29,206 bases of DNA from a virus. The stretch spans positions 1 through 29,206 of IMG/VR virus record IMGVR_UViG_3300032304_000490; one strand, given 5' to 3'. Below, piece by piece: positions 2,094 to 24,709 of this stretch; position 1 is the stretch's first letter; each line of letters begins with the position of its first letter. A model generated the notes under the pieces. The model searched no databases and was not told where the DNA came from. It worked only from the letters and a program-made list of their open reading frames with translations. A program made the translations under genes and the position numbers.

Positions 2094-2120
2094 TGGAGTC
2101 CTCTAAGTGCGTTGATACCC

Positions 2121-2128
2121 TATTTAGT
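2121..2128 (-). promoter_or_regulatory. Late-type promoter box (CTAAATA variant)
   Basis: ACTAAATA on the minus strand, 23 bp after the terminator stem and about 28 bp before the ATG of the 110-residue beta protein. CTAAATA is a variant of the late box seen in marine T4-like phages; the placement directly after a terminator supports it. Confidence 0.5.
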
Positions 2129-2148
2129 CAAACGGGGTATTAAGGGCA

Positions 2149-2175
2149 ATAAAAAACCCTGCCGAAGCAGGGTTT
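2149..2175 (-). terminator. Rho-independent terminator with UUCG loop
   Basis: On the minus strand, a perfect 9-bp stem (AAACCCTGC / GCAGGGTTT) closes on a TTCG tetraloop and runs into six T residues, then ATTG. It lies 20 bp after the stop of the WNESTTSW gene and before the promoter of the next unit, exactly where transcripts of the second adhesin cassette should end. It is the only convincing terminator I found in the window. Confidence 0.9.
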
Positions 2176-2195
2176 ATTTGAGTGATGATTGCGAG

Positions 2196-2528
2196 TTATT
2201 CTACTATATCCCAAGAAGTCGTAGATTCATTCCAACGATATGATTTATTATCTTCCATTGGATATGGAGTTGGTGGTTCCCAAGACCAAGTTGATTGATT
2301 TAATGTCCAACTTGGATAAGGTTGTTGGCCATAGAATACATCGTTTTCTCTATCGTATATGTAACCAATACTAGCATAATTTCCTCTTAAAGGTGTTCCA
2401 CCTAAAAGATGTTGATTACCTCTAGTATTATACGAAGTTTGAATCCATTCACCATCTTGTAGTGGTGTAGTATCACAAACAATAACAGTAACAACTTTAT
2501 TATCTAATATTTTTGCGTAATGTGCCAT
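2196..2528 (-). CDS. Small conserved phage protein with W-rich C-terminus, copy 2
   Basis: 110 residues, starting MAHYAKILDNKVVTVIVCDT. It is a paralogue of the 131-residue protein at 12870-13265: WIQTSYNTRG, GTPLRGNYASIGYIYDREND, YPSWTLNQSTWSWEPPTPYP and the ending YRWNESTTSWDIVE align. It lacks about 20 residues after the first strand compared with copy 1. Function unknown; the family is common among tail genes of marine T4-like phages. It is the last gene before the terminator at 2151-2175, so it ends the second adhesin cassette. The Shine-Dalgarno is weak (GAAAATAAAATG). Confidence 0.74.
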   Translation of the reverse strand: MAHYAKILDNKVVTVIVCDTTPLQDGEWIQTSYNTRGNQHLLGGTPLRGNYASIGYIYDRENDVFYGQQPYPSWTLNQSTWSWEPPTPYPMEDNKSYRWNESTTSWDIVE

Positions 2529-2542
2529 TTTATTTTCAGTAA

Positions 2543-3358
2543 TTAATTGATTGAGTATGCAGAACCATAAGCGGAATATTTAATGTAAACATAACCTGAT
2601 CCACCAGCGCCACCGGGAGCAAGTTGGAATCCACCGCCACCGCCACCGCCACCACTATTTGCATTAGCAGCTGAACCAGGAGTATTACCACCAGTACCTG
2701 CACCACCTCTGCCTGCGCCGCCAACACCGCCATGAGCATTTCTTCCATAACCTGATGGAGCTTGAGCGCCACCACCACCACCACCGCCAGCATATACTGT
2801 GTATGAACCAGTAATTTCAGATGTAAATCCTCCATCACCACCTACAGCATCTTGTAAATCTGAAGAACCGGATGCTCCAGCACCTTTTCCGCCTGTGCCA
2901 CCTCGTTGAACTGATATAGGCTCATTTGTTAGACCAGCGCCGCCGCCTTGAGCGCCGTCACCTGATGCACCACCATAACCACCATAAGCAATAAGTGCTC
3001 CAAATTGTGATTGACTACCTGGAGTTGGGCCTGGACCAGTATCACCACCACCACCTGCACCAACTGTTACAGTAACAGCTGCGCCAGGAGTTACAGGATA
3101 AGCTGCGTTGTAATAAACACCACCGCCTCCACCTCCTCCAGCTAAATTTCGTCCACCGCCTCCACCACCACCAACTACAAGAACTTGAACTTGTGTAAGT
3201 CCTGTTGGAATTGTATATGTGCCAGGACCAGGAGTTGAAGTAAATGCTTGAGTGCCAGCACCAACAGCAGTAATAATATTTAATCCTATTGGAAATTGCC
3301 CACCTACTGGTCTAGCAAAACTTCCGTTCGATTGAGATAAAGAATATTTAATTGGCAT
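2543..3358 (-). CDS. Glycine-rich phage adhesin, copy 2
   Basis: 271 residues. The N-terminus (ARPVGGQFPIGLNIITAVGA) matches the adhesin at 13292-14185. It is followed by FTSTPGPGTYTIPTGLTQVQ and VLVVGGGGGGG, then about 170 residues of glycine-rich repeats (TVTVGAGGGGDTGPG, SQFGALIAYGGYGG, ITGSYTVYAGGGGGGGA), closing with GGSGYVYIKYSAYG and the ending YSIN shared with copy 1. Same family as copy 1 and as the inner domain of the 714-residue protein. The sequence between the glycine runs differs from copy 1, as expected for host-contacting loops. Coupled by TAATG to family P copy 2 upstream; the WNESTTSW gene follows 14 bp later. Confidence 0.82.
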   Translation of the reverse strand: MPIKYSLSQSNGSFARPVGGQFPIGLNIITAVGAGTQAFTSTPGPGTYTIPTGLTQVQVLVVGGGGGGGRNLAGGGGGGGVYYNAAYPVTPGAAVTVTVGAGGGGDTGPGPTPGSQSQFGALIAYGGYGGASGDGAQGGGAGLTNEPISVQRGGTGGKGAGASGSSDLQDAVGGDGGFTSEITGSYTVYAGGGGGGGAQAPSGYGRNAHGGVGGAGRGGAGTGGNTPGSAANANSGGGGGGGGFQLAPGGAGGSGYVYIKYSAYGSAYSIN

Positions 3359-3696
3359 TAGGAAATCTCCACACCGAAAGCTGAAATTGAAACACTAGAT
3401 GATGATGCGTTTGCAGCTAAAATACAACCAGTTTGTAGTGTGACACCAAAATTTAAATTAACTGTATCACTAGCAGGCAATAAACCACCACGAACAATAT
3501 AGTATGTGTTAGCTGCAGGTGAAGCATAGTTAGCAGGAGGCATAACAGCAATACTATATGATAGATTTGATGCTGTTTGATTTGTTACAAGAATGGATGA
3601 TACTACCGCACTTGTAGAAGCAGGAACAACATACACATTACCTTGTGTATTTGCAGTTGGATTTAACTGACCAAGAATTTTATATGCATTTGCCAT
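3358..3696 (-). CDS. Small virion beta protein, family P copy 2
   Basis: 112 residues, starting MANAYKILGQLNPTANTQGN. It matches the 110-residue protein at 14185-14517 from end to end (NVYVVPASTSAVVSSILVTN, YIVRGGLLPASDTVNL, ending FGVEIS), and it also resembles the C-terminal domain of the gene directly before it, so two family P units lie back to back here. Small beta protein of unknown function, probably part of the fibre/adhesin complex. Both ends overlap their neighbours by one base (TAATG), so it sits in a tightly coupled translation unit with the fusion protein and the glycine-rich adhesin. Confidence 0.72.
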   Translation of the reverse strand: MANAYKILGQLNPTANTQGNVYVVPASTSAVVSSILVTNQTASNLSYSIAVMPPANYASPAANTYYIVRGGLLPASDTVNLNFGVTLQTGCILAANASSSSVSISAFGVEIS

Positions 3697-4232
3697 TATA
3701 CTATTTCGACTCCATATACATGAACTGAAACACCAGCAGCACCTGAACCAGCGTTACCGCCTGTTGTATTAGCGGCAACAACTGTATTTGCAGCTAACAT
3801 TATTCCTGGTTCAAAAACATAAGTGTCGGCTGCAGGTATATTTAAACTTTTTAATATATAATGTTTTGTTGCTAAAGACTCAGTAGAAGGTCTAATAGAA
3901 ATATCCACATTGACTGAAAGGGGGTTTTGATTACAAATAGTTAACGAGTGAATCGTTGCACTTGTAGCAGATGGAACAACATAGACATTCGATAATGTGT
4001 TGGCAGTTGTTGCAATTTGCCCTAAAATTTTAAAACTTGTAATGCCGTTTGTTAATACTGCTAAATTTGTTCCAGATGTTGCTAAAGTTCCGTTTGCAGC
4101 TGGAACTGTACCAGTAATCTGAGTGTTGGCAACAGAGATGATTTTAGCTGCCGTGATTGTGCCATCAGCAATGTCGGCCGCTACGACTGCGTTATTTGCG
4201 ATTGCATTTGTGTTTATTCTGGATAATGGCAT
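3696..4232 (-). CDS. Fusion of fibre-shaft module with family P domain
   Basis: 178 residues. Residues 1-65 are shaft sequence (NTNAIANNAVVAADIADGTI, IISVANTQITGTVPAANG) like the N-terminal part of the jelly-roll fibres. Residues about 66-178 (FKILGQIATTANTLSNVYVV, ATSATIHSLTICNQ, HILKSLNIPAADTY-like core as HYILKSLNIPAADTY, ending VYGVEIV) match family P, the 110-112 residue proteins. It therefore links the fibre class to the small beta proteins and supports a virion location for the whole family. A late-promoter box lies only 5 bp before the ATG and no clear Shine-Dalgarno is seen, so translation may be near-leaderless or depend on longer upstream transcripts. Its stop shares a base with the next start (TAATG). 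Confidence 0.72.
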   Translation of the reverse strand: MPLSRINTNAIANNAVVAADIADGTITAAKIISVANTQITGTVPAANGTLATSGTNLAVLTNGITSFKILGQIATTANTLSNVYVVPSATSATIHSLTICNQNPLSVNVDISIRPSTESLATKHYILKSLNIPAADTYVFEPGIMLAANTVVAANTTGGNAGSGAAGVSVHVYGVEIV

Positions 4233-4237
4233 GGCTT

Positions 4238-4245
4238 TATTTATT
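4238..4245 (-). promoter_or_regulatory. T4-type late promoter box abutting a start codon
   Basis: AATAAATA on the minus strand, only 5 bp before the ATG of the 178-residue fusion protein in a 70-bp gap. The context (ATAAATAAAGCCATG) closely resembles that before gp8 (ATAAATAAAGACTATG). Confidence 0.5.
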
Positions 4246-4302
4246 CTCTATTCTGTTTAAAATGCTCTATGCACTCTGCAATTGTTTTGATAACTTTATA
4301 TT

Positions 4303-4332
4303 TTATTCGTCAGCAGGTTCTGGAGTATTACC
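4303..4332. repeat. 30-bp identical repeat, copy A
   Basis: Identical to 11438-11467. It encodes the last nine residues (GNTPEPADE) and the stop of the 50-residue protein copy 2. Confidence 0.88.
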
Positions 4333-4455
4333 AGCAGCAAGCCAAGCGAGGTATTCTGGATTATCTAATGAAACTGAAATAAAAGAACCATCTTCATTAG
4401 TTTTAGATGCTCCAATTACTTCGCCTGTTGTTGGTGTTTTATACAATTTCCACAT
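4303..4455 (-). CDS. 50-residue acidic phage protein, copy 2
   Basis: A complete 50-codon frame, starting MWKLYKTPTTGEVIGASK and ending in NPEYLAWLAAGNTPEPADE. Same length, same place behind a jelly-roll fibre gene and same ending as the protein at 11438-11590. The N-terminal 30 residues differ strongly, while the last 30 bases of DNA are identical. It begins 1 bp after the fibre stop (TAATATG), implying coupled translation. Function unknown. The constant C-terminus with a variable N-terminus suggests that one end binds a shared virion part and the other fits the particular fibre. Confidence 0.72.
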   Translation of the reverse strand: MWKLYKTPTTGEVIGASKTNEDGSFISVSLDNPEYLAWLAAGNTPEPADE

Positions 4456-4456
4456 A

Positions 4457-5833
4457 TTATATCTCCGCACTTAATATTAATCTACCATTTGTATTTCCAT
4501 CGGTTCTTGCCACATAATATCTTCCAGCAGAAATACCAGCGCCAACATTACCTTCCAGTTGAGCTACATTTGGAGTTGAATTTGTTGCGTTCAATGCCAT
4601 TGATGACCATATATAAGTTGCAGAGAAATCGGTCATTGCAAAATGACTTTGTGATGATAAAGTCAAAGAAGATGGTTTTGCTCTCATAGTTACGGGAAGT
4701 TTAACAATGCAATGTGCAAAATTTGCCGTTGAAGCATTTGCCATTCCATCAGATAAATTGGCATATGCGGAATCAGCTGAACTAAAAGCAAAACAATACC
4801 TCTGACACTTTCTAAGTGTTGTTCCAATATCTTCAAATTCAAAAGGTGTAGCTACTGGTCCAACTTCCCATTGAATACCAGTAAATGCAATATAGTTACC
4901 AACACGGTTTGCAAGGTTTAATTGTCCTGCAGCTCTAGTATTATCGGCACCAGCTGATGTTCCCCATGTTGTTTGTAATGTTCCACCAGCATAATCACTA
5001 CCTGAACCGAACCAGAATGCTAACTCCATTGAGCGAGCATTATCATTATCTAGTTGACCTGTTGTGTCCGCAGGAAATGTAATGGTTTCTTTTTCCCATG
5101 TGTCAACAGCATTAATTGTATATGACCTACTGCAAGCTCTGCTATTATCATTATCACGCATTTCAGCAATATATGTTCCAGTATTACTTGATTTTACCCA
5201 AAATGAAACAGTAATTTGTTCTGCTCCAGATGTTCCTTTTTTAATGGACTGCATCATCTGTCCTTCCATATCTTGTTTGAATAACAGATATGAACTTGAT
5301 GGAGGAGATGATTGTGCTGATGTGCAAATCAAATTAGCAGATTTAACTAATCCTGTTGATGTTGGACCATTAGATTCGACATTCATTGTCCAAGTTCCCA
5401 AAGAACCTGAAGTAATTTTCCATCTGTCAGCGGTTAAAATTGAATCGTTTGTTGTGATGCCAGTTACAGATGTATTTCTTTGTGCAATTTGCATAGCACC
5501 ATTAAAAATTAAATTTCTATTACTTAATGGACGCCCACCAGCATTTAAATAATTCTCAACAGCACCAGTTTGAATTGCTGAGTTAGCAATAGTATTTGCT
5601 GTGATTACAGAGCCGTTAACAGAGGCAATCTGTGAGCTAATGATGTTACCACTAATCTTTGTGTTTGCAACAGAAAGAATCTTATCGTTAGTGATTGCAG
5701 TAGCACCAATAGAGTTGGCAACATCGATACCTGTTGTGTTAGCAGAAAATAAAGTTGTGCCTGTATTAGAACGGACAATAAAAGTATTGTCTGTATCTGT
5801 TGTTATGTTGCTGACGATTAATGTTCCGGCCAT
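4457..5833 (-). CDS. Tail-fibre protein with jelly-roll carbohydrate-binding-like domain, copy 2
   Basis: 458 residues. The N-terminus MAGTLIVSNITTDTDNTFIV is an attachment segment common in phage fibres. It leads into the shaft module LSVANTKISGNIISSQIASV and NGSVITANTIANSAIQTGAV, nearly the same as in the 414-residue protein at 11593-12837. Then NRNLIFNGAMQIAQRNTSVT opens the jelly-roll domain (VSFWVKSSNTGTYIAEMRDN, WEKETITFPADTTGQL, GIQWEVGPVATPFEFEDIGT). The C-terminal 120 residues are unlike those of the paralogue apart from general beta character, as expected if the receptor-contacting end differs. A late-promoter box lies 22 bp before the ATG and overlaps the stop of the upstream gene. 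Likely a receptor-binding fibre or fibre segment. Confidence 0.8.
   Translation of the reverse strand: MAGTLIVSNITTDTDNTFIVRSNTGTTLFSANTTGIDVANSIGATAITNDKILSVANTKISGNIISSQIASVNGSVITANTIANSAIQTGAVENYLNAGGRPLSNRNLIFNGAMQIAQRNTSVTGITTNDSILTADRWKITSGSLGTWTMNVESNGPTSTGLVKSANLICTSAQSSPPSSSYLLFKQDMEGQMMQSIKKGTSGAEQITVSFWVKSSNTGTYIAEMRDNDNSRACSRSYTINAVDTWEKETITFPADTTGQLDNDNARSMELAFWFGSGSDYAGGTLQTTWGTSAGADNTRAAGQLNLANRVGNYIAFTGIQWEVGPVATPFEFEDIGTTLRKCQRYCFAFSSADSAYANLSDGMANASTANFAHCIVKLPVTMRAKPSSLTLSSQSHFAMTDFSATYIWSSMALNATNSTPNVAQLEGNVGAGISAGRYYVARTDGNTNGRLILSAEI
5553..5618. repeat. 66-bp shared module, copy A
   Basis: Matches 12650-12715 at 62 of 66 positions, including an identical 38-bp run. It lies in the shaft region of the 458-residue jelly-roll fibre (NGSVITANTIANSAIQTGAV). 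Confidence 0.8.
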
Positions 5834-5855
5834 AATTCTCTCTTAATTTATATTG

Positions 5856-5863
5856 TATTTATC
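5856..5863 (-). promoter_or_regulatory. T4-type late promoter box before jelly-roll fibre copy 2
   Basis: GATAAATA on the minus strand. The stop TGA of the DUF7483-like gene shares two bases with the box (TGATAAATA), and the ATG of the 458-residue fibre follows 22 bp later. Confidence 0.62.
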
Positions 5864-6941
5864 AGCGGGCGTTGGCGTATTTAAATGGTGCTTCGGCAAA
5901 AGCAGCATAGATGTAGGTACCTGTTCCAATTCCACCATCCGCTCTTATTTTAATTCCATTTGATACAAAGTCTATTGGATTATCTGTTCCACCACCACCA
6001 TCACCTGTACCAGAACCACCATAAGTTGAATTACCAAACGCATAATAATTTCCACCATTAGATCCAGGTCGTTTACTATCATAAATTAACCAGTTTCCTG
6101 TAGAATCGATGCGTTTAACTATAAAAAATGCTGGCCTAAATCCACAGTATAAAAATGCATTATTTGTTGTAGTATTACCAACATATGAACCAAATTGTGA
6201 ATATCCTGGAATTTCCGCCCAACAGTATGCAATATTATTGATTCCATTTTCGTTTACAGCAACAACATTTCCTGGACTGCCAGCAGTTGCAAAACCAAAA
6301 GTTGTATTACTACTTAAATCACCCAACACACCATCACCTACTGAAGCAGCAGATGTTTGTGCATTTGTTACATTCAAAAATGAATTATATGTGCTTGTAT
6401 GACTTTTATGTTTAACATGCCAGTAGTCTCCACCATTTCGTTCTTTAGTTATAATCATAGCAGGAACTGCATCCAATCCATGACCTACTGTTGCAGAACT
6501 AGAACCATTTCCTGTCCAAGTTACAATACTAAATCCTGCCGTTGGATTCGCAGATACTTGTGCCGATATTGTACCATTAGTATTTGTTACTGCTGCGCCG
6601 CCGTTTTTCCAAATCCAATCAATGTAATTAAGACCCGATTTATTTACATTTGATGAATCGGTAGAACCAGCTCGAGTTGTAAATCCATTGGTATCTATTG
6701 ATTGAACCCAACCACCAGAACTACCAAGATTATCACCATCAGTAGAATTTGTTGCTATTAAGTTGGCAGTATTTCCACGCATATTATCAGAAAGTGAATG
6801 CCAATTCACATTATCTCTTGCTTTTGTCCAAATTAAACCTGGTTGAAAACTTAAATCTGTAACAACAGCAGAAGGTGACACACCATTACCTGCTCTTGCA
6901 CGAACATCAAAATGATTGGATGGTTTTGTAATTGCTGGCAT
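5862..6941 (-). CDS. DUF7483-like virion protein, probable split-off C-terminal part
   Basis: 359 residues, starting MPAITKPSNHFDVRARAGNG. Recognisable stretches are FQPGLIWTKARDNVNWHSLS, WKNGGAAVTNTNGTISAQVS, FSIVTWTGNGSSSATVGHGL, PAMIITKERNGGDYWHVKHK, YCGFRPAFFIVKRIDSTGNW and the ending YIYAAFAEAPFKYANAR. In many marine phage proteins this domain is fused behind LamG and SPRY, after a junction like PPSGFKSLNTxNLP. Here the preceding gene ends exactly at that junction (SGFKSLNTFNLP) and this one begins 2 bp later (TAATCATG) in another frame. It therefore looks like fission of one ancestral gene into two coupled genes. Probably a surface-binding or fibre-tip protein acting with its neighbour. 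The stop TGA overlaps a late-promoter box. Confidence 0.8.
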   Translation of the reverse strand: MPAITKPSNHFDVRARAGNGVSPSAVVTDLSFQPGLIWTKARDNVNWHSLSDNMRGNTANLIATNSTDGDNLGSSGGWVQSIDTNGFTTRAGSTDSSNVNKSGLNYIDWIWKNGGAAVTNTNGTISAQVSANPTAGFSIVTWTGNGSSSATVGHGLDAVPAMIITKERNGGDYWHVKHKSHTSTYNSFLNVTNAQTSAASVGDGVLGDLSSNTTFGFATAGSPGNVVAVNENGINNIAYCWAEIPGYSQFGSYVGNTTTNNAFLYCGFRPAFFIVKRIDSTGNWLIYDSKRPGSNGGNYYAFGNSTYGGSGTGDGGGGTDNPIDFVSNGIKIRADGGIGTGTYIYAAFAEAPFKYANAR

Positions 6942-6943
6942 GA

Positions 6944-9088
6944 TTATGGCAGATTAAAAGTGTTGAGGGATTTGAAGCCGCTTGGTGGGGTGTAGGTGAA
7001 TGCTCTTTGGCCAAAGTTTAAATCTGTAGTCATTGTTCCAGAACCAACATACATTGAAATTGCTGGTAAGAATGTTCCACTTAAACTACTATAAGCGGTT
7101 CCTTGACTTATACCATTTTTATAGAATGTGAGTGTTCCAGTATCCATATCTAAAGCAACACCAATTATATCATTAGTAGTAAATGCAGACCCATAAGCTA
7201 CGCCACTAGAATTGTTATATCTATATCCGTCATTAGCGTTATAACCATATCCAGTTGCAACATTACCTATATACGAACTTAATGGAACAGACACAGAGGC
7301 TATTCCTACCATTGTAAATTTAGAAGATGCAGGAGCATCATTGATTGTATATTCCCAATACCATTTACCAGAACTAATACCAAAACTAGCCCTTGCAGAA
7401 GTCCAATTTGTTGCACCTGAAGTTGTTTTCAAATTTCCATTTGACATAGTTATTGTGTCGGTGTCTAGTGGATTCATCACACAATAATTACTTGCAACTG
7501 CACTTCTTGTTGGCGAATCAATCATTGCATCATATGTATTTGAAGTTGGTGAAGTGTATGATAGAATAACGATACCTTGAGAACCAGAACCGCCAGACAA
7601 TGTGCCTGTTGTATTGTAAGTACCACCAGAACCACCACCACCGGATCCGTATCCAGTCGCATTAGAGCCGTTACTATTGTTTGTACCACCGGCACCACCA
7701 ATACTTGAACCACCAGAACCGCCTGGACCAGGAGAACCTGAATATGCACCACCGCCACCACCACCAGCATATGTTACCGGTGAACCAGATATTGATGATG
7801 TGAAACCTGCACCACCATTACCACCTTGATTGTTTGGTGATGCTGAACCAGCGCCACCTGCACCACCACCGCCTGCACCAGAAGATGTTGTTGAACTTCC
7901 GCCTGCAAATCCTTGTCCTGGTGTTGCAGCACCTCCAGTGCCAGAGACAGAAGAACCGCCGCCTGAACCGCCTGCAGCACCATCACTACCTGCAACACCT
8001 GGAGCGCCACCGCCACCACCGATTGCAGTTATAGTTGCGAATACAGAATTCGATCCGTTTGCGCCTCTTGTTCTACCAGAACTTCCAGTACCACCAGTAC
8101 CTACTGTAAGTGTATATGCTGTTCCTGGAACAATAACTAATGATCCGTTTGCAACACCACCGGCACCACCACCGCCTGAACCACTATCATACATTGTCGG
8201 ACCAGCAGAACCACCGGCACCACCGCCTGCGACTACCAAGTAATTAACAGATGTAACACCTAATGGTGCAATCCAAGTGCTACTACCTGTAGTTGTGTAA
8301 CTCTTAATAGTAGTTGGTGTTGATACATCGATGTTGTTTGGTGTCCAGTTGTTTCCGTTACCAGAAGAATCTTTACCAATTGCAGCAGCCGTTGCAGCTG
8401 ATGTATCTGCAAACTTCAAATAGTAACCGTTTGTGCCGTATGTACCTGCAAACTTTTTAGGAATCCATTGACCTGTTGCACCATCTGTTTTACCAAATGA
8501 AGATGGAGTTAATTGTTGGCCATCAATGAAATTGATTTCGGTTAAGTAGCCGTCATGAAAATATGTTGGTGTGCTACTAAAATAATTTACACCTAGAGTG
8601 TGAAGAACATTGTTGTTTATATTAAAATCGTCATTTTGTGTTGGATTATTTGATGTGGCAAATGAAGTTATTTCAGAACCATTTACATACATCTTCACTC
8701 GATTTGCAGCAGTTGCTTGAGTTGTATCTAACGCAACCACAATATGGTACCAAGCTGCTGGATCACGAAACACTTGGCTAGTTTGACGATAGACTGTGTT
8801 CCAATTTTTAAAAAGTAATTGGTCATCGTCAAAACGAATAACACCATAACCAGCATCAGTATTAGCAGACCAAGCAGTAAGCAATCCTCCATATTGGACA
8901 AATGATCCTCTTTTAACCCATCCACTCCAAGTCCAAGTCTTGCGATTGGATGCACTAGCAGGAGTTCTACTTAAATAAGCACTATTTGCCGCACGAAATC
9001 TTAAACTATTCTTAATAAAATAGCCTAAGTTGGCTAATCCACCAAATTGTTTTAAACTACCGCCACCAGTTGTACCAAGAAAAGGCAT
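6944..9088 (-). CDS. LamG - glycine-rich - SPRY virion protein
   Basis: 714 residues with three parts. Residues about 25-215 are a LamG-like jelly roll (SLRFRAANSAYLSRTPASAS, TWTWSGWVKRG, AWYHIVVALDTTQATAANRV, VKMYVNGSEITSF) followed by GYYLKFADTS and SSGNGNNWTPNNIDVST. Residues about 270-512 are a glycine-rich domain (VNYLVVAGGGAGG, SNSVFATITAIGGGGG, SISGSPVTYAGGGGGG, GIVILSYTSP). Residues about 540-710 are SPRY-like (SSGKWYWEYTINDAP, IIGVALDMDTGTLTFYKNGI, FTYTPPSGFKSLN). LamG/SPRY proteins are common in marine phages and usually read straight from NNID into a YDSMxDSPT-like sequence; here the glycine-rich domain sits exactly in that linker. LamG and SPRY are binding folds, so a host or surface ligand role is likely. 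Start has Shine-Dalgarno AAGGA. Confidence 0.83.
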   Translation of the reverse strand: MPFLGTTGGGSLKQFGGLANLGYFIKNSLRFRAANSAYLSRTPASASNRKTWTWSGWVKRGSFVQYGGLLTAWSANTDAGYGVIRFDDDQLLFKNWNTVYRQTSQVFRDPAAWYHIVVALDTTQATAANRVKMYVNGSEITSFATSNNPTQNDDFNINNNVLHTLGVNYFSSTPTYFHDGYLTEINFIDGQQLTPSSFGKTDGATGQWIPKKFAGTYGTNGYYLKFADTSAATAAAIGKDSSGNGNNWTPNNIDVSTPTTIKSYTTTGSSTWIAPLGVTSVNYLVVAGGGAGGSAGPTMYDSGSGGGGAGGVANGSLVIVPGTAYTLTVGTGGTGSSGRTRGANGSNSVFATITAIGGGGGAPGVAGSDGAAGGSGGGSSVSGTGGAATPGQGFAGGSSTTSSGAGGGGAGGAGSASPNNQGGNGGAGFTSSISGSPVTYAGGGGGGAYSGSPGPGGSGGSSIGGAGGTNNSNGSNATGYGSGGGGSGGTYNTTGTLSGGSGSQGIVILSYTSPTSNTYDAMIDSPTRSAVASNYCVMNPLDTDTITMSNGNLKTTSGATNWTSARASFGISSGKWYWEYTINDAPASSKFTMVGIASVSVPLSSYIGNVATGYGYNANDGYRYNNSSGVAYGSAFTTNDIIGVALDMDTGTLTFYKNGISQGTAYSSLSGTFLPAISMYVGSGTMTTDLNFGQRAFTYTPPSGFKSLNTFNLP

Positions 9089-9098
9089 TATCTATTCC

Positions 9099-9857
9099 TT
9101 AAGCGTATTGGGTTTGTGAACCTAATACTGTGTATGTATTTGCTGCTGTCTTAATAATTGTGAAAGCATACAAGTCGATTGATGTAGCATTACCCGCAGA
9201 TGGTGCAGAACCGCCTTGCCATTTTGGTGTAACAGAAGTGCCATCAACTTGAAATGCGGATTGATAGAATGTGTTTGCAGATAACTGAGTTGCCAAATAA
9301 GCAACAGTCATGCTCTCACCAGTTGACATGATTGCATCTAGTCTTGTAGATGAGTTTGCACGGACATTCATTGTCCAGTTGGCTGCATTGTTAGCAGTAT
9401 AGAAATTAATTGAGTTCTCAAGCACATTAATGTTTTGTGTGCCAGTCAATGCAGTTGCAGTAATGTTTGCATTTTCGATTACTGAACCAATGTCAATACC
9501 TGTATTAAAGGTAAATGCCTTGGTTGTATTTGACCAAGTGAGTGTCTTGTTAGTAGAACCTCTAATTGTGATACCAGCACCGTCTGCAAGAGCATCAGTA
9601 GGAGCAGCAGAGTTGGCAATCTCAATGTTCTTGTCTGCTACAATAAGATTAACAGTATTAACAGTAGTTGTTGTACCAGAGACAGTTAAGTTACCACCGA
9701 TAGTTGCATCACCCATAGTTAAGAATGTTGATTGCACATTCATCGGCAATCCCACATTCCAAGATGCACCGCCTATAGTGATATAGGTAGTCTCACCAAT
9801 GTTAAATTTTAACTGTGATTCACCTTGTATGGTGTCTGTTTTAATTTTTCCGGCCAT
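9099..9857 (-). CDS. Tail-fibre-like virion protein
   Basis: 252 residues, starting MAGKIKTDTIQGESQLKFNI. It holds the fibre-shaft motif GDATIGGNLTVSGTTTTVNT, followed by NLIVADKNIEIANSAAPTDA and DGAGITIRGSTNKTLTWSN, a very common unit in fibre proteins of marine T4-like phages. The C-terminal half (NVRANSSTRLDAIMSTGESM, then FQVDGTSVTPKWQGGSAPSA and YAFTIIKTAANTYTVLGSQT) is also a known recurring end domain, so the protein looks complete. Its role is structural, either a fibre segment or a small distal fibre. It is preceded by an AAAGAGAAA ribosome site 12 bp after the upstream stop and has no promoter of its own. It ends 10 bp before the LamG/SPRY gene. Confidence 0.75.
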   Translation of the reverse strand: MAGKIKTDTIQGESQLKFNIGETTYITIGGASWNVGLPMNVQSTFLTMGDATIGGNLTVSGTTTTVNTVNLIVADKNIEIANSAAPTDALADGAGITIRGSTNKTLTWSNTTKAFTFNTGIDIGSVIENANITATALTGTQNINVLENSINFYTANNAANWTMNVRANSSTRLDAIMSTGESMTVAYLATQLSANTFYQSAFQVDGTSVTPKWQGGSAPSAGNATSIDLYAFTIIKTAANTYTVLGSQTQYA

Positions 9858-9869
9858 ATAATTTTCTCT

Positions 9870-10292
9870 TTAAAATACTGTAAAGGTTGAGTTGTTCGAA
9901 ACCATTAGTGTGACATTATTTGCTATAGAAATTGGTCCAGCCGCACTTGCATTGTAACCATCACTAATAGTAGTATTCGTTGTTAATATTTGTGGATTAA
10001 TTCTTATCAATCCATATGTATCTGCTGCCAGATAAGGTGTTGTTACTACAGAACCACCAAGGTAAATAACTTCAACATTGTCTGTGCCAGTTGGCGGTGC
10101 AGTTGAAAATACTATTTGACCATTGATTACTGCATATGAATCAGTCTTCTGTTTAACACCAGTGATAAAGACTAATACGGAAGCTTCATTGCCATACTCA
10201 TATGACAAATTGAAAGTTGTGGTTGTATTATCGCCAGAATAAAACTGACTTCTAATTGCACCACTTACTGGTTGATTGCCAAGATATGCCAA
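9870..10292 (-). CDS. Small fibre adaptor protein (TTG start)
   Basis: 140 residues, reading (M)AYLGNQPVSGAIRSQFYSG. The N-terminal 85 residues form a beta domain ending FSTAPPTGTDNVEVIYLGG, related to the domains of the 259-residue fibre protein at 14519-15298. The rest (YGLIRINPQILTTNTTIS, then ASAAGPISIANNVTLMVSN and TFTVF) matches the short beta tail common to many marine phage fibre proteins. The start is TTG: an in-frame TAG lies four codons upstream, there is no in-frame ATG near the conserved AYLGNQ sequence, and a Shine-Dalgarno AGGA lies at proper distance. A late-promoter box is 22 bp upstream. Probably a structural fibre component; exact place unknown. Confidence 0.75.
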   Translation of the reverse strand: MAYLGNQPVSGAIRSQFYSGDNTTTTFNLSYEYGNEASVLVFITGVKQKTDSYAVINGQIVFSTAPPTGTDNVEVIYLGGSVVTTPYLAADTYGLIRINPQILTTNTTISDGYNASAAGPISIANNVTLMVSNNSTFTVF

Positions 10293-10314
10293 GGTGTTTT
10301 CCTATGTTGTTCTT

Positions 10315-10322
10315 TATTTATG
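10315..10322 (-). promoter_or_regulatory. T4-type late promoter box before the TTG-start adaptor gene
   Basis: CATAAATA on the minus strand, overlapping the TAA stop of the S74 fibre gene and 22 bp before the TTG start of the 140-residue protein. Confidence 0.62.
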
Positions 10323-11403
10323 ACTCAAGCGCCACGATGCGGGCGGTTAGTGCGGTAATTGTTGCGGCTTGTGTGTCGTTTATAATTTTAAGTTCTTTAA
10401 TGGATGCCACAAGCAATGGAATTACATCGGTGTAAGACATCCCAAGTTTTCCCTCTGGTGAAAGATTTGTAGCTTCTGGTAATACTGCTTGAACATCTTG
10501 GGCAATTAAAAATGGATGTTTTGTTTTATTTTCATCATTTATGTAATTGCCAATAACAGTTCTCAATGTAGCAACTTTTGTCATTGCATCTTGTATTGGA
10601 ACTAAATTTTCTTTTACTGTTTCATCAGATACAAATTGCCAGGATGTTCCACCATCTACTATGTAAGCACCAGTACCTGCTTGATTATAAATGATGTAAT
10701 TGTTATTTGAGTCTGGACCTGATTGCCAAAATTTATTAGCAGCGGCACCTGCATTCCTTAATGCGGTTGATGCATTAGTGCCCCAATCTCCATTTTGAGA
10801 AAGTCCGCCATTACTAGTAATACGGAAACGCTCTGTGTTACCACCAGCATAAAACAACATAGCCGCTGAATTTAAAGCAACACCCGAACCTGCAATAGCG
10901 CAACCTCCAGTTGTAGACTCTCCAGAAGTAAATAAAAGTCTTGGACCATCTCCAGCAGTTGTACCGGGATGATTTAATCTAAATGTTGTAACAGCACCAG
11001 TGCCACTTGTGCTTGAATTGACAACATCCAATTTAACACTAGGACTACTAGTACCAATACCCACATTACCATTAGCGTCAATTCGAACATCTTCCGTACC
11101 TGCGGTATGGAATGATATAGCGTTTGCAGAAGGAACTCGGATGCCTGTTGTACCAACAGAATCTAAATTTAAATTACCAGAAATAATTGGAGTCGTTAGA
11201 GTGACACTAGGTGCAATCTGTGAGCTAATAATGTTACCAGTGATTGCAGTATTCGCAACACTTACCGCATTGTTTGATGCGCCAGTGATAACACCATTGC
11301 TATCAAATGTCAACGAAATGGTGTTAGCAGAACCACCAACGGTAACTGATGTTATATTATTCGATACTTGGAATAATGCCGGTGATACACGGGTTAAAGC
11401 CAT
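10318..11403 (-). CDS. Tail fibre/spike with C-terminal S74 intramolecular chaperone
   Basis: 361 residues. The N-terminal 100 residues are shaft sequence (VSVANTAITGNIISSQIAPS), then GTEDVRIDANGNVGIGTSSP, a motif common in phage fibres just before the head, and a middle beta region (RFRITSNGGLSQNGDWG). Residues about 259-361 form a peptidase S74 chaperone domain: SDETVKENL matches the family's self-cleavage motif, with Ser259 and Lys264 as the likely catalytic dyad, followed by FLIAQDVQAVLPEA and a C-terminal coiled coil (LVASIKELKIINDTQAATIT). In this family the chaperone folds the trimeric fibre and then cuts itself off. A late-promoter box lies 24 bp upstream of the start; the stop codon overlaps the promoter of the next gene. 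Confidence 0.87.
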   Translation of the reverse strand: MALTRVSPALFQVSNNITSVTVGGSANTISLTFDSNGVITGASNNAVSVANTAITGNIISSQIAPSVTLTTPIISGNLNLDSVGTTGIRVPSANAISFHTAGTEDVRIDANGNVGIGTSSPSVKLDVVNSSTSGTGAVTTFRLNHPGTTAGDGPRLLFTSGESTTGGCAIAGSGVALNSAAMLFYAGGNTERFRITSNGGLSQNGDWGTNASTALRNAGAAANKFWQSGPDSNNNYIIYNQAGTGAYIVDGGTSWQFVSDETVKENLVPIQDAMTKVATLRTVIGNYINDENKTKHPFLIAQDVQAVLPEATNLSPEGKLGMSYTDVIPLLVASIKELKIINDTQAATITALTARIVALES

Positions 11404-11427
11404 TTGATATTCTCTCTATTAATCTTT

Positions 11428-11435
11428 TATTTATC
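11428..11435 (-). promoter_or_regulatory. T4-type late promoter box before S74 fibre
   Basis: GATAAATA on the minus strand, 2 bp after the stop of the 50-residue gene and 24 bp before the ATG of the S74 fibre gene. Confidence 0.62.
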
Positions 11436-11437
11436 TG

Positions 11438-11467
11438 TTATTCGTCAGCAGGTTCTGGAGTATTACC
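11438..11467. repeat. 30-bp identical repeat, copy B
   Basis: Identical to 4303-4332. It encodes the last nine residues and the stop of the 50-residue protein copy 1. Confidence 0.88.
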
Positions 11468-11590
11468 CTCAGCAACCCACTTTAAATAGGCTTGGTAGTC
11501 TGTGTTTTGTTCGTCAAGTGGAATGGATGCACCTTTTAAGGTATTAAAAATTCCGACTACTTGGTCATTATGTTTTAGTAATTGATACAT
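11438..11590 (-). CDS. 50-residue acidic phage protein, copy 1
   Basis: A complete 50-codon frame, starting MYQLLKHNDQVVGIFNTL and ending in WVAEGNTPEPADE. The motif TDYQAYLKWVAEGNTPEPAD is widespread at the end of small phage tail proteins. Reasons to accept it despite its size: it starts 2 bp after the stop of the jelly-roll fibre; the other jelly-roll fibre (4457-5833) is followed by a second gene of exactly the same length and ending (4303-4455); and it fills the space up to a late promoter. The last 30 bases are identical to those of the second copy. Function unknown; it is possibly a fibre assembly factor or tip component. Confidence 0.72.
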   Translation of the reverse strand: MYQLLKHNDQVVGIFNTLKGASIPLDEQNTDYQAYLKWVAEGNTPEPADE

Positions 11591-11592
11591 TT

Positions 11593-12837
11593 TTATAACT
11601 CCGCATCAGCTGTGAAAGAATAATAATATCCATAGCCTTGGTTAAAAGCAGATGTAGATGAGTATGTGTACAAGAATCCAGCTGGGTTTAAATATAAAGC
11701 AACAGCCGCTATTTTTGCTGCATTATCAATTCTATAAACATTACCTGCTGAACCGTCTTGGTAATACATAACAACTGTAGGTGCTGTGCGTTTTCTTACA
11801 CTAAATGGCTTTCCTTGACAAAATGCAACAGCACCTCCAAATGTTGTGCCGCCAACACCTACAACAATTTGTTGTCCATCATATTGGGCATTATTTCCAA
11901 AATCAGCAGAAGTTTCAAAATACCGCTGACACAAAGCCAACTCAGTACCATAAGGTCTGTAATCAAATGATGTTGCGGTACTGCCTACCTCAAATTGCGT
12001 ACCTGTGATGTACCAAGTAGCACCATTGGTAGCGACTAATTTAGTTTCGCCTGTAACACTTTGGTAGTCTCCAGCAACCCAAGCGTTTGCCGTATTTAAA
12101 TAAGTAGAGCCTGTACCAAGCGACCAACGAATAACAACTCCTCTACTATTATCTGTTACCCATGTTCCAGTTGTATCTCCAGCAATAGTAATTTTTTTTT
12201 GTTCCCAAGTATTAGCAGAAGAAATTGTGTAACTAAATGGGTATGCTCTTGCGTTACTTTGACTTTCTAAAGCGCCACCAAAAGTTCCTGTTAAAGAACT
12301 GCGAACCCAAAAAGACAATGTGACAGTCTTTGCGTTTGCAGTCCCCCACATTAAATCGGCAATGTTATAACCTTCAATTTGTTGGTCTACTTCATAAGTA
12401 TCTCCCGCACCAACAGTTGTAGCCGCTAAAGATGTAGCAATAATAGAATTAACAAAACCAGCACCAGTAGGGACTGTTGAACTTTGTTGCAAACTAACCT
12501 TACTACTGTTTGATACAACCAATCTAAATCTATCTACTGGATAACTAACATTGGTATTAACTGCACTTGTGCCTCGCTGTGCAATAACCATCGCACCATT
12601 GATGATGCGGTTCCTCATACCAAAACTCAATCCAGTAGCATTCATATAGTTCTCAACAGCACCAGTTTGGATTGCTGAGTTAGCAATAGTATTTGCTGTG
12701 ATTACAGAACCATTGACTGCTGCAATCTGAGATGCAGTAATTAAACCAGTAATAGCAGTATTTGCAACAGATACAATATCAGCCGCCGCTACTGCACCGT
12801 CTTGTATAATACCACTTGTAATTTTTTGAATAGGCAT
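11593..12837 (-). CDS. Tail-fibre protein with jelly-roll carbohydrate-binding-like domain, copy 1
   Basis: 414 residues. Residues 1-68 are fibre-shaft sequence (IVSVANTAITG, NGSVITANTIANSAIQTGAV), then FGMRNRIINGAMVIAQRGTS opens a domain found in many phage tail fibres, with TVTLSFWVRSSLTGTFGGAL, WEQKKITIAGDTTGTW and WYITGTQFEVGSTATSFDYR. The pattern of an elongated beta sandwich with TVTLSFWVR and FEVGS resembles carbohydrate-binding modules. The C-terminus (residues about 300-414) differs from the paralogue at 4457-5833 and may be the variable binding part. A late-promoter box 20 bp upstream and a weak Shine-Dalgarno suggest independent late expression. It is followed 2 bp later by a 50-residue gene, as is its paralogue by 1 bp. 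Confidence 0.8.
   Translation of the reverse strand: MPIQKITSGIIQDGAVAAADIVSVANTAITGLITASQIAAVNGSVITANTIANSAIQTGAVENYMNATGLSFGMRNRIINGAMVIAQRGTSAVNTNVSYPVDRFRLVVSNSSKVSLQQSSTVPTGAGFVNSIIATSLAATTVGAGDTYEVDQQIEGYNIADLMWGTANAKTVTLSFWVRSSLTGTFGGALESQSNARAYPFSYTISSANTWEQKKITIAGDTTGTWVTDNSRGVVIRWSLGTGSTYLNTANAWVAGDYQSVTGETKLVATNGATWYITGTQFEVGSTATSFDYRPYGTELALCQRYFETSADFGNNAQYDGQQIVVGVGGTTFGGAVAFCQGKPFSVRKRTAPTVVMYYQDGSAGNVYRIDNAAKIAAVALYLNPAGFLYTYSSTSAFNQGYGYYYSFTADAEL
12650..12715. repeat. 66-bp shared module, copy B
   Basis: Partner of 5553-5618, in the shaft region of the 414-residue jelly-roll fibre, in the same orientation 7.1 kb away. Confidence 0.8.
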
Positions 12838-12857
12838 TTAGTCTTTACTCTTTGTAT

Positions 12858-12865
12858 TATTTATG
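12858..12865 (-). promoter_or_regulatory. T4-type late promoter box before jelly-roll fibre copy 1
   Basis: CATAAATA on the minus strand in the 32-bp gap between the WNEETTSW gene and the 414-residue fibre gene, 20 bp before its ATG. Confidence 0.62.
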
Positions 12866-12869
12866 ATGA

Positions 12870-13265
12870 TTATTCTACTGTAACCCAAGAAGTCGTTTCT
12901 TCATTCCAAACATAATATTTACCATCATCTGGTTCAGCAATTGGTGCTTCCCATTGGCAAGTCTGTTCATTTAGAATCCATGATGCATAATGTTTTGGAG
13001 GAATGAAGGCATCTTTTTGTGGGTCGTATACACCACCAATACCAGCATAATTTTTTCTCAATGGAGTTCCATTTAAATTATGTATGCCATGAGAAGTATT
13101 GTATGAAGTTTGTTTCCAAATAGTATCTTGCCCATGAATTGACTTTAAGTAGGCAATTCCTACTTCTTCAGATTCATTGCCATTCTCATCCAAACAGTTG
13201 TGGTTATCAACCTTTGAAACATGAATTACTTCATTATCTAAATTTAATTTTGCAAAATGCGCCAT
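12870..13265 (-). CDS. Small conserved phage protein with W-rich C-terminus, copy 1
   Basis: 131 residues, starting MAHFAKLNLDNEVIHVSKVD. This is a protein type common in marine T4-like phages. Conserved parts are IWKQTSYNTS, GTPLRKNYAGIGGVYDPQKD, PPKHYASWILNEQTCQWEAP and the ending YYVWNEETTSWVTVE. The tryptophan-rich C-terminus probably forms a small beta unit; function unknown, and it is usually found among tail and fibre genes. The paralogue at 2196-2528 is 110 residues long and lacks about 20 residues in the N-terminal third (around LDENGNESEEVGIAYLKSIH). A good Shine-Dalgarno (AAAAAGG) precedes the ATG. It follows the glycine-rich adhesin in both cassettes. Confidence 0.75.
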   Translation of the reverse strand: MAHFAKLNLDNEVIHVSKVDNHNCLDENGNESEEVGIAYLKSIHGQDTIWKQTSYNTSHGIHNLNGTPLRKNYAGIGGVYDPQKDAFIPPKHYASWILNEQTCQWEAPIAEPDDGKYYVWNEETTSWVTVE

Positions 13266-13291
13266 CTTAACCTTTTTCTACAAAATAATGT

Positions 13292-14185
13292 TTAATTAAT
13301 ACTGTACACATTGGCATTTGAAGTAAACACTCCATCACCAGTAAATGTATGTATAGTGTATAAGGTTGGTCCTGAACCAGATGTTGTTACGGATCCGCCT
13401 GTTGCACCTTGAGCGCCAAGATATCTGACAATAACCCTACCGCCACCACCACCACCTTCTGAATAATGTGCACCGCCGCCAATATTTGGTGCACCGCCAC
13501 CTGAACCAGAAGAACCAGGCCCACTATTACCAAAAGCGCCACCACCGCCTGCATATGTCACTGGAGAACCAGAGATAGAAGATGCTCTTCCGGATCCACC
13601 AGGACCACCAGTAGCAAAGCCACCAGATGAAGTGCCAGCACCGCCAGCACCTCCACCACCACCGCCATTGTAACCACCGCCTCCAGGTTTACCACCACCA
13701 GGAAAACCATATCCTGTTCCAAATGGAGAGTTTCCTGGACTACCTGGTTGCAGAGCAGGACCGCCTGTTGCACCATTTGTTAATCCGCCGCCGCCACCTG
13801 ATCCACCTGCACCACCTTGTTGTCCAGGTTCACCAGTAACACCAGCCCCACCACCAATTGCAGTAACGATACCAAAAACACTATTTGATCCCTGACTACC
13901 AGCTGCTCCTCCACCACCGACTGTTACTGCAAGTCCGGTTCCTCTTGTGAGAGTATAAGCTGACCCTTCAACGAAACCGCCGCCACCGCCACCACCACCG
14001 ACAGAACCACCGCCACCTGCAACGACTAAGAATTCGACAGTTAGTGGTCCACCAGCTTGTGTTTGATTTAAACCTACTGGAAATTCATAACCAGCTGGTC
14101 TGATACTAACACCAGTTGATACACCGTTTCTTAAACCAGATGCACCAGAAGCTCTGGCAACACCGTTGGCAGTTTTAACACTCAT
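13292..14185 (-). CDS. Glycine-rich phage adhesin, copy 1
   Basis: 297 residues. The N-terminus (IRPAGYEFPVGLNQ) precedes a beta strand (TVEFLVVAGGGG), then about 200 residues of glycine-rich repeats with runs such as GGGGGGGG and motifs SNSVFGIVTAIGGG and SISGSPVTYAGGGG, closing with GGGGRVIVRYLGAQG and a short tail ending NANVYSIN. This is the glycine-rich domain of phage tail proteins; by analogy with glycine-rich adhesins of T4-like phages (gp38 of T2/S16 type) it may fold as packed polyglycine helices with variable loops contacting the host surface, but that structural comparison is inference. The paralogue at 2543-3358 has the same start (RPVGGQFPIGLN) and the same ending (YSIN). The start is coupled to family P copy 1 by a TAATG overlap. 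Confidence 0.82.
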   Translation of the reverse strand: MSVKTANGVARASGASGLRNGVSTGVSIRPAGYEFPVGLNQTQAGGPLTVEFLVVAGGGGSVGGGGGGGGFVEGSAYTLTRGTGLAVTVGGGGAAGSQGSNSVFGIVTAIGGGAGVTGEPGQQGGAGGSGGGGGLTNGATGGPALQPGSPGNSPFGTGYGFPGGGKPGGGGYNGGGGGGAGGAGTSSGGFATGGPGGSGRASSISGSPVTYAGGGGAFGNSGPGSSGSGGGAPNIGGGAHYSEGGGGGGRVIVRYLGAQGATGGSVTTSGSGPTLYTIHTFTGDGVFTSNANVYSIN

Positions 14186-14517
14186 TAGGTAATCTCCGAA
14201 CCAAAGATAGAGAATGATACATTAGGGCTACTTGAATTAGCTGCAACGACAGTTGTTGCGTTTGCAGTTAATCCAATAGTTAAGAAGATTGTGTCAGCAG
14301 CAGGTACCGTTGCGCCTCTAACGATAAAGTCTGCCGCAGAAGCTGAAGCTGCAAATGTTGGCATCACCATTAAACTGTATGATGCGTTTGTTGCTGCCTG
14401 ATTACAAATTGCGATTGTTGAGATTACTGCTGAAGTTGCCGCTGGCACAACATACACATTGGTCTGCGTATTTGCAGATGGGTTGATTGCGCCAAGTCGT
14501 TTATAAATTTGTGCCAT
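14185..14517 (-). CDS. Small virion beta protein, family P copy 1
   Basis: 110 residues, starting MAQIYKRLGAINPSANTQTN. It aligns by eye along its whole length with the 112-residue protein at 3358-3696 (YKILGQLNPTANTQGNVYVV) and with the C-terminal two thirds of the 178-residue protein at 3696-4232. Shared marks are NVYVVPAATSAVISTIAICN, an IVRGATVPAADTI core and the ending FGSEIT. Function unknown; the beta pattern and the position directly before a glycine-rich adhesin suggest an adaptor or capping protein for it. The Shine-Dalgarno CAGGA overlaps the stop of the upstream fibre gene. Its stop shares a base with the next ATG (TAATG), exactly as in the second copy of this gene pair. Confidence 0.72.
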   Translation of the reverse strand: MAQIYKRLGAINPSANTQTNVYVVPAATSAVISTIAICNQAATNASYSLMVMPTFAASASAADFIVRGATVPAADTIFLTIGLTANATTVVAANSSSPNVSFSIFGSEIT

Positions 14518-14518
14518 T

Positions 14519-16275: not shown

Positions 16276-16296
16276 TTAGTAGTCCCTTAGATACTC

Positions 16297-16304
16297 TATT
16301 TATG
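16297..16304 (-). promoter_or_regulatory. T4-type late promoter box (second of two)
   Basis: CATAAATA on the minus strand, 21 bp before the ATG of the 108-residue virion protein and immediately after another box. The spacing to the Shine-Dalgarno AAGGGA is normal for late genes. Confidence 0.65.
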
Positions 16305-16312
16305 TATTTATC
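16305..16312 (-). promoter_or_regulatory. T4-type late promoter box (first of two)
   Basis: GATAAATA on the minus strand, overlapping the stop of the 191-residue fibre-like gene. A second box follows directly, so the 108-residue gene and the homing endonuclease behind it may have two start sites 8 bp apart. Confidence 0.6.
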
Positions 16313-24703: not shown

Positions 24704-24709
24704 AGTCTT

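Follow-up and report, generated by a model that had tools for sequence, protein, structure and literature searches.

Which genes of a host-recognition region belong together, and are exchanged together, is the question raised by a viral locus in which five gene families are present twice with changed order. Phages change hosts through exchange of receptor-binding parts, and to our knowledge few rules of this exchange have been established for T4-like aquatic phages whose hosts are uncultured bacteria. The DNA analysed, called here the window, is the whole stretch of 29,206 nucleotides of IMG/VR record IMGVR_UViG_3300032304_000490. The region of interest belongs to a T4-like aquatic phage (Kyanoviridae-type) and is its hypervariable cluster for host recognition, with fibre genes within positions 1761-16883 and a phrog_358 gene at the place of VrlC (17114-23080); the neck-gene side of the cluster lies beyond the window and was observed in phage Melnitz instead. 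The host recognition cluster of pelagimyophages and cyanomyophages has already been described as a hypervariable island of fibre genes behind the VrlC gene (PMC7029224), as found here; it was published as a variable island, however, and a structure of promoter-adhesin-partner units was not found described in the available part of that source. A phage collection searched with the DNA of the region gave no near match, and comparisons were made with a sample of 220 related virus loci.

A sequence-only reading of this DNA had proposed two sets of five genes, and all ten were open on the minus strand at the positions given below (S50_2 starts with the ATG at 4455). In order of transcription the features were:

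16297-16312, minus strand: two copies of the late-promoter motif NATAAATA at the head of the unit P3-(endonuclease)-g14519-P1-Gly1-W1
15949-16275, minus strand: P3, a third P-family protein (P profile E 1.6e-27; phrog_1276), missed by the sequence-only reading
15299-15952: homing endonuclease, likewise missed
14519-15298, minus strand: fibre-type protein (g14519), backbone side with P1; matches Phage_T7_tail (N-terminal) and tail-fibre PHROGs weakly
14185-14517, minus strand: P1, small jelly-roll (8 strands) preceding the adhesin (AlphaFold2 pLDDT 88)
13292-14185, minus strand: Gly1, the set 1 glycine-rich adhesin, overlapping P1 at TAATG (phrog_2295; Gly profile E 6e-35)
12870-13265, minus strand: W1, tryptophan-rich partner of Gly1 (phrog_7759)
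12858-12865, minus strand: late promoter, 28 nt upstream of F1
11593-12837, minus strand: F1, jelly-roll tail fibre (phrog_4492), C-terminal D-A-E-L (GCG GAG TTA TAA)
11438-11590, minus strand: S50_1, 50-residue putative tail-fibre chaperone or cap, ribosome-binding site GGAG within the last codons of F1
11428-11435, minus strand: late promoter ahead of the next gene
10318-11403: Peptidase_S74-type fibre gene
6944-9088, minus strand: 714-aa protein with a SPRY domain and a third Gly_rich_2 domain, outside both sets
5856-5863, minus strand: late promoter, 30 nt upstream of F2
4457-5833, minus strand: F2, jelly-roll tail fibre (phrog_4492), C-terminal S-A-E-I (GCG GAG ATA TAA)
4303-4455, minus strand: S50_2, 50-residue putative chaperone or cap for F2
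4238-4245, minus strand: late promoter, 13 nt upstream of P2f
3696-4232, minus strand: P2f, fibre hinge fused to a P domain
3358-3696, minus strand: P2, P adaptor with TAATG overlap at both ends
2543-3358, minus strand: Gly2, glycine-rich adhesin (Gly_rich_2 PF21722, E 4.8e-21)
2196-2528, minus strand: W2, partner of Gly2 (phrog_7759, E 1.5e-29)
2154-2175, minus strand: intrinsic-terminator-like hairpin right after W2 (9-pair stem, T-rich tail), closing the P2f-P2-Gly2-W2 unit

Several further fibre-type genes between set 1 and set 2, and the third Gly_rich_2 domain, had also been passed over. Two units, as first proposed, is too low a number: up to three P/Gly/W series were found in a relative (locus L006), and candidate adhesins in the window exceed the two sets.

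The five families were all homologous between the sets, with protein identities of 40-55% (P1/P2 55%, W1/W2 53%, 50-residue genes 47%, F1/F2 40% globally and 43% over 301 aa); the P, W, fibre and 50-residue pairs each scored far above 200 shuffles, and the Gly1/Gly2 pair reached z 7.9 against equal-composition shuffles. The junction types claimed earlier were confirmed, with the TAATG overlap between P and Gly in both sets and gaps of 2 and 1 nt between fibre and 50-residue gene. By blastn, set 1 matched set 2 in patches only, mainly at the fibre hinge (141 nt at 81%), in W (254 nt at 69%) and at the 3' end of the 50-residue gene (42 nt at 93%). Recent duplication was rejected because DNA similarity was merely patchy, and as read from the sequences the two sets are diverged paralogs, that is, ancient copies. 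Raised synonymous identity at the fibre hinge was limited to F1/F2 of the window itself and was not seen across genomes. The sets would represent independent, anciently diverged series of units, which would explain the free order of their blocks.

The motif NATAAATA has been described as the late promoter in T4-like cyanophages (PMC2984593). Late motifs (TATAAATA/NATAAATA) occurred 10 times on the coding strand of the window and 0 times on the other (98 vs. 4 over 15 loci), and 8 of the 10 lay 13-37 nt ahead of gene starts, as expected of T4-type late units. The form NATAAATA was found ahead of 8/8 F genes, 0/8 S50 genes and 0/26 Gly genes behind P. This pattern of motifs indicated that each block forms its own transcription unit, with a T4-type late promoter at its start. 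Behind the promoter, a unit would carry the gene of a receptor-binding protein and then a small partner gene whose translation signals lie within the adhesin gene or shortly after it, and two types would exist: jelly-roll fibre plus S50, and glycine-rich adhesin plus W, preceded by one or more P adaptors.

For the first type, 112 of the 113 distinct S50 genes in all loci lay directly behind an F-type fibre; an F gene preceded 84/85 non-edge S50 genes in the S50-anchored sample, and this neighbourhood was counted 34 times vs. 3.2 expected. The ribosome-binding site of S50 is formed by the terminal codons of the fibre, GCG/TCG-GAG, and the C-terminus of all these fibres is accordingly [ASI]-E-[LIF]. 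Alanine codons were GCG in 86% of cases in the fibre tail vs. 11% in the body (p=6e-56), and the share of GAG was 84% vs. 31%. Within genomes carrying two F-S50 pairs, S50 similarity followed the last 110 residues of the fibre (14/17 contrasts, p=0.0002, uncorrected for earlier tests and still significant after tenfold correction), physical linkage being a possible contributor since the fibre 3' end adjoins S50; the value for the fibre core was p=0.33, equally uncorrected, and the signal with the tip sat in the N-half of S50. These are refined figures: in an initial round of five covariation tests with a single statistic, fibre tip vs. S50 alone was significant (p=0.0056).

In locus L134 the S50 domain was fused to Phage_tail_APC (PF16778), and in L140/L141 an APC-like protein, as read from sequence, stood behind the same AEL-ending fibre. 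The S50 proteins of the window contained no recognisable Pfam chaperone domain such as PF16778, and the S50 profile had no detectable match in the PDB to the solved Pam3 chaperone, the fused APC part giving the sole PDB match. S50 follows the fibre and bears no chaperone domain of Pfam, so it would work like a chaperone without being filed as one. Most likely, S50 is a minimal intermolecular chaperone for the tail fibre or a cap that binds it transiently; its N-terminal half would fit the distal tip of the fibre. S50-like genes were very common in virus contigs, with at least 586 confirmed relatives; these were sought with a single S50 protein, the S50 alignment being too variable for a profile scan.

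In the second type, 104 of 106 distinct W genes in the 220 related loci sat behind a Gly gene, and the Gly to W neighbour count was 106 vs. 14.7 expected. Gly2 exceeded the gathering score of PF21722 (76.3 bits vs. a cut-off of 24.3); Gly1 had no match to this family and was recognised solely by phrog_2295 and the Gly profile. The predicted model of W1 was a confident compact fold (pLDDT 96.6) with no match in the PDB, known chaperone folds included. Covariation of W with Gly within genomes was not significant (p=0.16-0.33), the glycine-rich alignments being unreliable. W probably serves the glycine-rich adhesin much as S50 serves the fibre, and would occupy for the glycine-rich tip the slot that S50 has for the fibre. 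An apparent W fusion in L080 (a 223-aa reading frame) was rejected as read-through upstream of the true start, because the match begins at 2334.

P behaved differently. P1 was 82% identical to its counterpart in L006, and the adhesin behind it reached at most 57% in partial matches; P3 shared 80% identity with its positional counterparts in L006 and L011. The phage collection gave 0 tblastn matches to P1. Compared with the PDB, the P1 model resembled generic viral jelly rolls only (alignments for the structure models were built from window and virus-contig rows only), and membership of W or P in solved fold families was dropped after this comparison. P-Gly covariation within genomes was not significant (p=0.13). 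We infer that P is a backbone-side adaptor able to precede either adhesin class; its jelly-roll would join the adhesin to the fibre or baseplate side, mostly staying with the backbone.

Among the 220 loci, blocks recurred and permuted in many unrelated contexts. Neither flank was homologous in 66-72% of the locus pairs with S50 55-90% alike; in pairs with similar S50, downstream flanks were homologous in 8-10% only and F was present in 99%. Melnitz and Melnitz-3 showed >99.9% identity on either side of exchanged stretches. In one of these, Gly tip, W, F and S50 of Melnitz corresponded in Melnitz-3 to another tip, an 85-aa gene, a 182-aa fibre-type gene and a Phage_tail_APC chaperone, the 3' junction being the stop of S50/chaperone; in the other, Gly-W was exchanged for a 220-aa fibre-type gene and a 74-aa gene. 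Identity resumed within the 3' half of S50 in L012/L016 (two pairs), L155/L214 and L215/L224. Sequences of these near-identical phages indicated joint replacement of adhesin tip and partner, the crossovers falling within the partner gene or at its boundary. The four Melnitz strains, including Melnitz-3 with its different units, shared one host range across three strains (PMC9004378). The transfer of blocks and the co-occurrence of their families, both suggested earlier, held for adhesin and partner, near obligate in both unit types; P does not belong to the transferable unit as a fixed member.

We therefore favour, at a probability of about 75%, a host-recognition cluster built of short late units in which an adhesin and its small partner are exchanged together, S50 being a minimal chaperone or cap, W likewise, and P an adaptor. 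A new specificity would come from a joint swap of distal adhesin and partner; one crossover would fall in the conserved 5' part of the adhesin and the other at the partner gene or within it, and each unit would recognise a host. A bolder version, to which we give slightly less than even odds, makes S50 and W new adhesin-specific partner families, with S50 the smallest tail-fibre chaperone known, wired through its ribosome-binding site, and W a new fold; there homologous recombination would use the constant 3' end of S50 as its joint, and the true exchange unit of receptor specificity in aquatic phages would thus be the fibre tip with the client-binding half of S50. Less probably, though by no means far-fetched, S50 and W could be structural virion parts, tip caps or collars kept on the fibre (cf. 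phage Mu Tfa, S16/T2-type gp38), and not transient chaperones. W is often last in its unit, behind the glycine-rich adhesin as gp38-like tips are behind gp37, its model is confidently compact, and some chaperones, e.g., Mu Tfa, stay fibre-bound (PMC10579305); the APC fusion in L134 and the APC-type replacements in L140/L141 and Melnitz-3 argue against this, as do the 50 residues of S50, about the size of a chaperone client-binding domain, and Pam3 gp25, a functional analogue of S50 undetected in virions (PMC9608196).

We consider it unlikely that the conserved A-E-L end of the fibre is a peptide tag for S50 instead of a by-product of the ribosome-binding site. E-[LIF] did end 113/113 distinct fibres before S50, including the L158 fibre missed by the F profile, and L185, L133 and L138, where S50 starts further downstream, retained E-L in codons without GGAG; the codon choice is nevertheless extreme (GCG, TCG, GAG), and CGGAG persists even where the residue changes between A and S, which points to a constraint on the RNA. 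It is quite improbable that physical linkage and operon streamlining alone hold the blocks, with no functional pairing of adhesin and partner: phage late genes are generally packed, adjoining genes of <1.5 kb recombine together, and covariation strongest at the adjacent fibre end is also expected from linkage, but linkage stops sharply at the downstream flanks, W and S50 almost never occur without their own adhesin class, and partner type switches with adhesin type in the Melnitz replacements. We give just as little credit to the model of the sequence-only reading, a transferable P/Gly/W unit of three genes with P dedicated to the glycine-rich protein. P preceded Gly 47 times vs. 13.8 expected, TAATG coupled 25/48 such junctions, and the diverged stretch between conserved flanks in L048/L096 spans P, Gly, Gly and W; against it, P shows much stronger conservation than the Gly behind it, lies on the unchanged side in Melnitz, directly precedes F in L128, L129, L130 and L134, and is followed by an unlabelled gene in 37/105 non-edge cases.

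That no description of such blocks existed was too strong a statement, as fibre-plus-chaperone modules crossing unrelated phages (PMC10579305) and the host recognition cluster itself (PMC7029224) have been published. In the Alteromonas phage A5/V22 module (PMC10579305, PMC7289586) an adhesin likewise adjoins its cognate chaperone or cap and is found in unrelated phages; that chaperone is of ~22 kDa, whereas here one genome carries several units, the partners are much smaller, and crossovers fall inside the partner gene. Pam3 gp24, with a glycine-rich distal domain, is also followed by its chaperone gp25, in which the N-terminal beta domain that binds the client (residues 1-55) is variable and the C-terminal part conserved (PMC9608196); unlike S50, of ~50 aa behind a jelly-roll fibre, gp25 has 162 aa and its own trimerisation domain. 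The polyglycine adhesin gp38 of T2/S16 type would resemble Gly in being a glycine-rich receptor-binding tip protein encoded behind the fibre; Gly differs in often having W downstream and the P adaptor upstream. Transfer of fibre plus chaperone was already known, and the wiring, the minimal chaperone and the W family are the new details. Exchange of hook and helper together would refine a known viral route for changing host attachment. With such a unit grammar (late promoter, adaptor, adhesin, cognate partner, recurring crossover points), readers of metagenomes could delimit receptor-binding units and choose the helper to express alongside each adhesin, and could explain why fibres of this kind may fail if expressed alone. 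In public annotation, S50 and W mostly appear as 'hypothetical protein'.

The window, a single IMG/VR virus record of 29,206 bases (37% G+C), matched in its layout Melnitz (Kyanoviridae), a phage of Methylophilales in which the neck genes come next, and presented the following features:

Right half of the window: T4-like baseplate proteins (matches to phrog_219 and phrog_438)
Right half of the window: 1988-aa gene at the VrlC place (phrog_358)
1761-16883 (left part), all on the minus strand: row of fibre-type genes
2175-2154: terminator-like hairpin, closing the second P/Gly/W unit

The VrlC-to-neck-genes stretch of pelagimyophages and cyanomyophages is described in PMC7029224 as a hypervariable host-recognition cluster. 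At the left edge of the row, an LtfC-like gene (1761-2093; phrog_1084 and phrog_3304, 'L-shaped tail fiber protein assembly') had a similar gene at a comparable place in Melnitz (locus L002, 22131-22466) and a 71% identical counterpart in related locus L008. Within the row, a stand-alone DUF7483 protein (5862-6941; PF24299, E 5e-96) was located directly behind a Gly_rich_2/SPRY protein, and homologs of both also adjoined in related loci L019 and L026.

The sequence-only reading had described a cassette of five families present twice: P, Gly (glycine-rich adhesin), W (tryptophan-rich small protein), F (jelly-roll fibre) and S50 (50-residue gene) in set 1, and F, S50, a P fusion, P, Gly and W in set 2. 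This observation is real, largely as noticed, and is of an already known kind, the fibre-plus-chaperone exchange module, to which the region adds a new, small family of chaperone-like proteins as well as clear genetic wiring. The ten genes were all found where that reading had placed them, and the families were homologous between sets. Their similarity clearly exceeded chance for P (55% identity, z 29), for W (53%, z 23), for the fibre (40%, z 28) and for S50 (47%, z 10), with a weaker signal for the Gly pair, whose composition is biased (z 7.9). That reading had overlooked several more fibre genes, a homing endonuclease of the GIY-YIG type, a third P gene (P3) and a further Gly_rich_2 domain. 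The set copies are ancient, P1 being nearer to the gene at the equivalent place in related locus L006 (82%) than to P2 (55%). The GIY-YIG/NUMOD3 endonuclease gene (15299-15952) lay between P3, which it overlapped by 4 nt, and a fibre-type gene ahead of P1 (g14519), and was missing at this place in relatives, L006 among them, P3 being followed there directly by the g14519 counterpart. F1 (11593-12837) and F2 (4457-5833) shared about 60 nearly identical nucleotides, synonymous sites included, at hinge codons about 40-60, in contrast with 40% identity elsewhere in both fibres; this resembles the outcome of gene conversion or of recombination within the genome, and a shorter patch was common to the S74 fibre (10318-11403). 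The two S50 genes of the window shared a 42-nt 3' patch at 93%, and the hinge and S50 patches flanked divergent fibre tips and S50 N-halves.

Scans of virus contigs with P1, W1, F1 and one S50 protein yielded 220 loci, over which families were labelled with profiles made in this analysis. F stood directly before S50 in 84 of the 85 non-edge S50 genes of the S50-anchored sample, the sole exception being preceded by a different protein likewise ending in S-A-E-L, and Gly directly before W in 104 of 106 distinct cases. Adjacencies exceeded those in shuffled gene order for Gly to W (106 observed vs. 14.7 expected), F to S50 (34 vs. 3.2) and P to Gly (47 vs. 13.8). Gly was frequently found without W, and P without Gly; therefore, the dependence runs from partner to adhesin. 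In locus pairs with S50 genes 55-90% alike, neither 1.5-kb flank was homologous in 66-72%, thus indicating that fibre and S50 units occur in many contexts; for Gly-W at 55-65% W identity the figure was 70%, and the share was smaller in closer pairs, in keeping with the relatedness of their genomes. The expectation that the sub-blocks travel as blocks was borne out for F-S50 and Gly-W. Both mutual orders of P/Gly/W and fibre/S50 were seen, mostly one block without the other, and the proposal of two transferable units held as to kind and failed as to the place of P and the count of two. P was mostly kept with the backbone and found ahead of either adhesin type, and our best guess is therefore a putative adaptor or collar; its predicted structure (pLDDT 88) was a jelly roll of eight strands that weakly resembled generic viral jelly rolls. 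The W model (confidence 96.6) found nothing better than E 0.8 in the PDB, and its virus matches were solely uncharacterised phage proteins; we infer its role from its position.

S50 began 0-2 nt past the fibre end in most cases. The fibre C-terminus was E-[LIF] in 113/113 distinct fibres, mostly A-E-L or S-E-L. Its codons were skewed: GCG accounted for 86% of Ala codons against 11% in the bodies of the fibres (p=6e-56), TCG for 84% of Ser codons against 4%, and GAG for 84% against 31%, placing CGGAG about 6 nt upstream of the S50 start. This is a constraint at the RNA level; the window instances are GCGGAGTTATAAAAATG and GCGGAGATATAATATG. P ended in G-x-E-I, often also bearing GGAG where a TAATG overlap joins it to Gly. 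NATAAATA, known from the literature as the late promoter of T4-like cyanophages (PMC2984593), occurred 10 times on the window coding strand and 0 times on the opposite one; it lay 13-37 nt ahead of P3, F1, the S74 fibre, gene g9870, F2 and the P fusion. Among 15 T4-like loci it preceded 8/8 F genes, 0/8 S50, 0/26 Gly behind P and 0/13 P behind P. Judged by these signals, the sub-blocks are transcription units or the terminal parts of such units, and this accounts for their free order.

S50 is best read as a putative minimal chaperone or cap, because of its fusion to or replacement by APC proteins, its tracking of the fibre tip and the position behind fibres that chaperones are known to take (PMC7289586, PMC9608196, PMC10579305). 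An S50 domain was fused to PF16778 Phage_tail_APC in one locus (L134), and in two others (L140 and L141) an APC-like protein, as read from sequence, followed an A-E-L fibre. In 17 within-genome contrasts, S50 similarity followed that of the last 110 fibre residues (14 positive, p=0.0002), with no tracking of the fibre core (p=0.33); the tip signal was stronger for the S50 N-half (p=0.0001) than for its last 22 residues (p=0.02). Linkage may contribute to this tracking.

Natural REPLACEMENTS were seen in Melnitz and Melnitz-3, which were >99.9% identical on either side of a series of replaced stretches. One had its start some 97 codons into the adhesin that follows a P gene and its end exactly at the S50 stop (Melnitz) or the Phage_tail_APC chaperone stop (Melnitz-3), exchanging Gly tip, W, fibre and S50 for another tip, an 85-aa gene, a 182-aa fibre-type gene and the APC chaperone. 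Another exchanged Gly-W, from adhesin start to W stop, for a 220-aa fibre-type gene and a 74-aa gene. The Melnitz paper (PMC9004378) reports nine genes differing in length at this region and, on three strains, no difference in host range. In three further locus pairs, L155/L214, L215/L224 and L012/L016 (the last for both of its fibre-S50 pairs), identity returned abruptly within the S50 3' half. The diverged stretch of L048/L096 comprised P, Gly, Gly and W, ending just past W; P can therefore form part of a replacement. A third Melnitz-3/Melnitz replacement (L002 20525-22054 and L003 about 23831-25288) was an exchange within a 1.6-kb fibre-type gene that affected its distal part: roughly the first 50 codons were similar, and identity returned at the stop.
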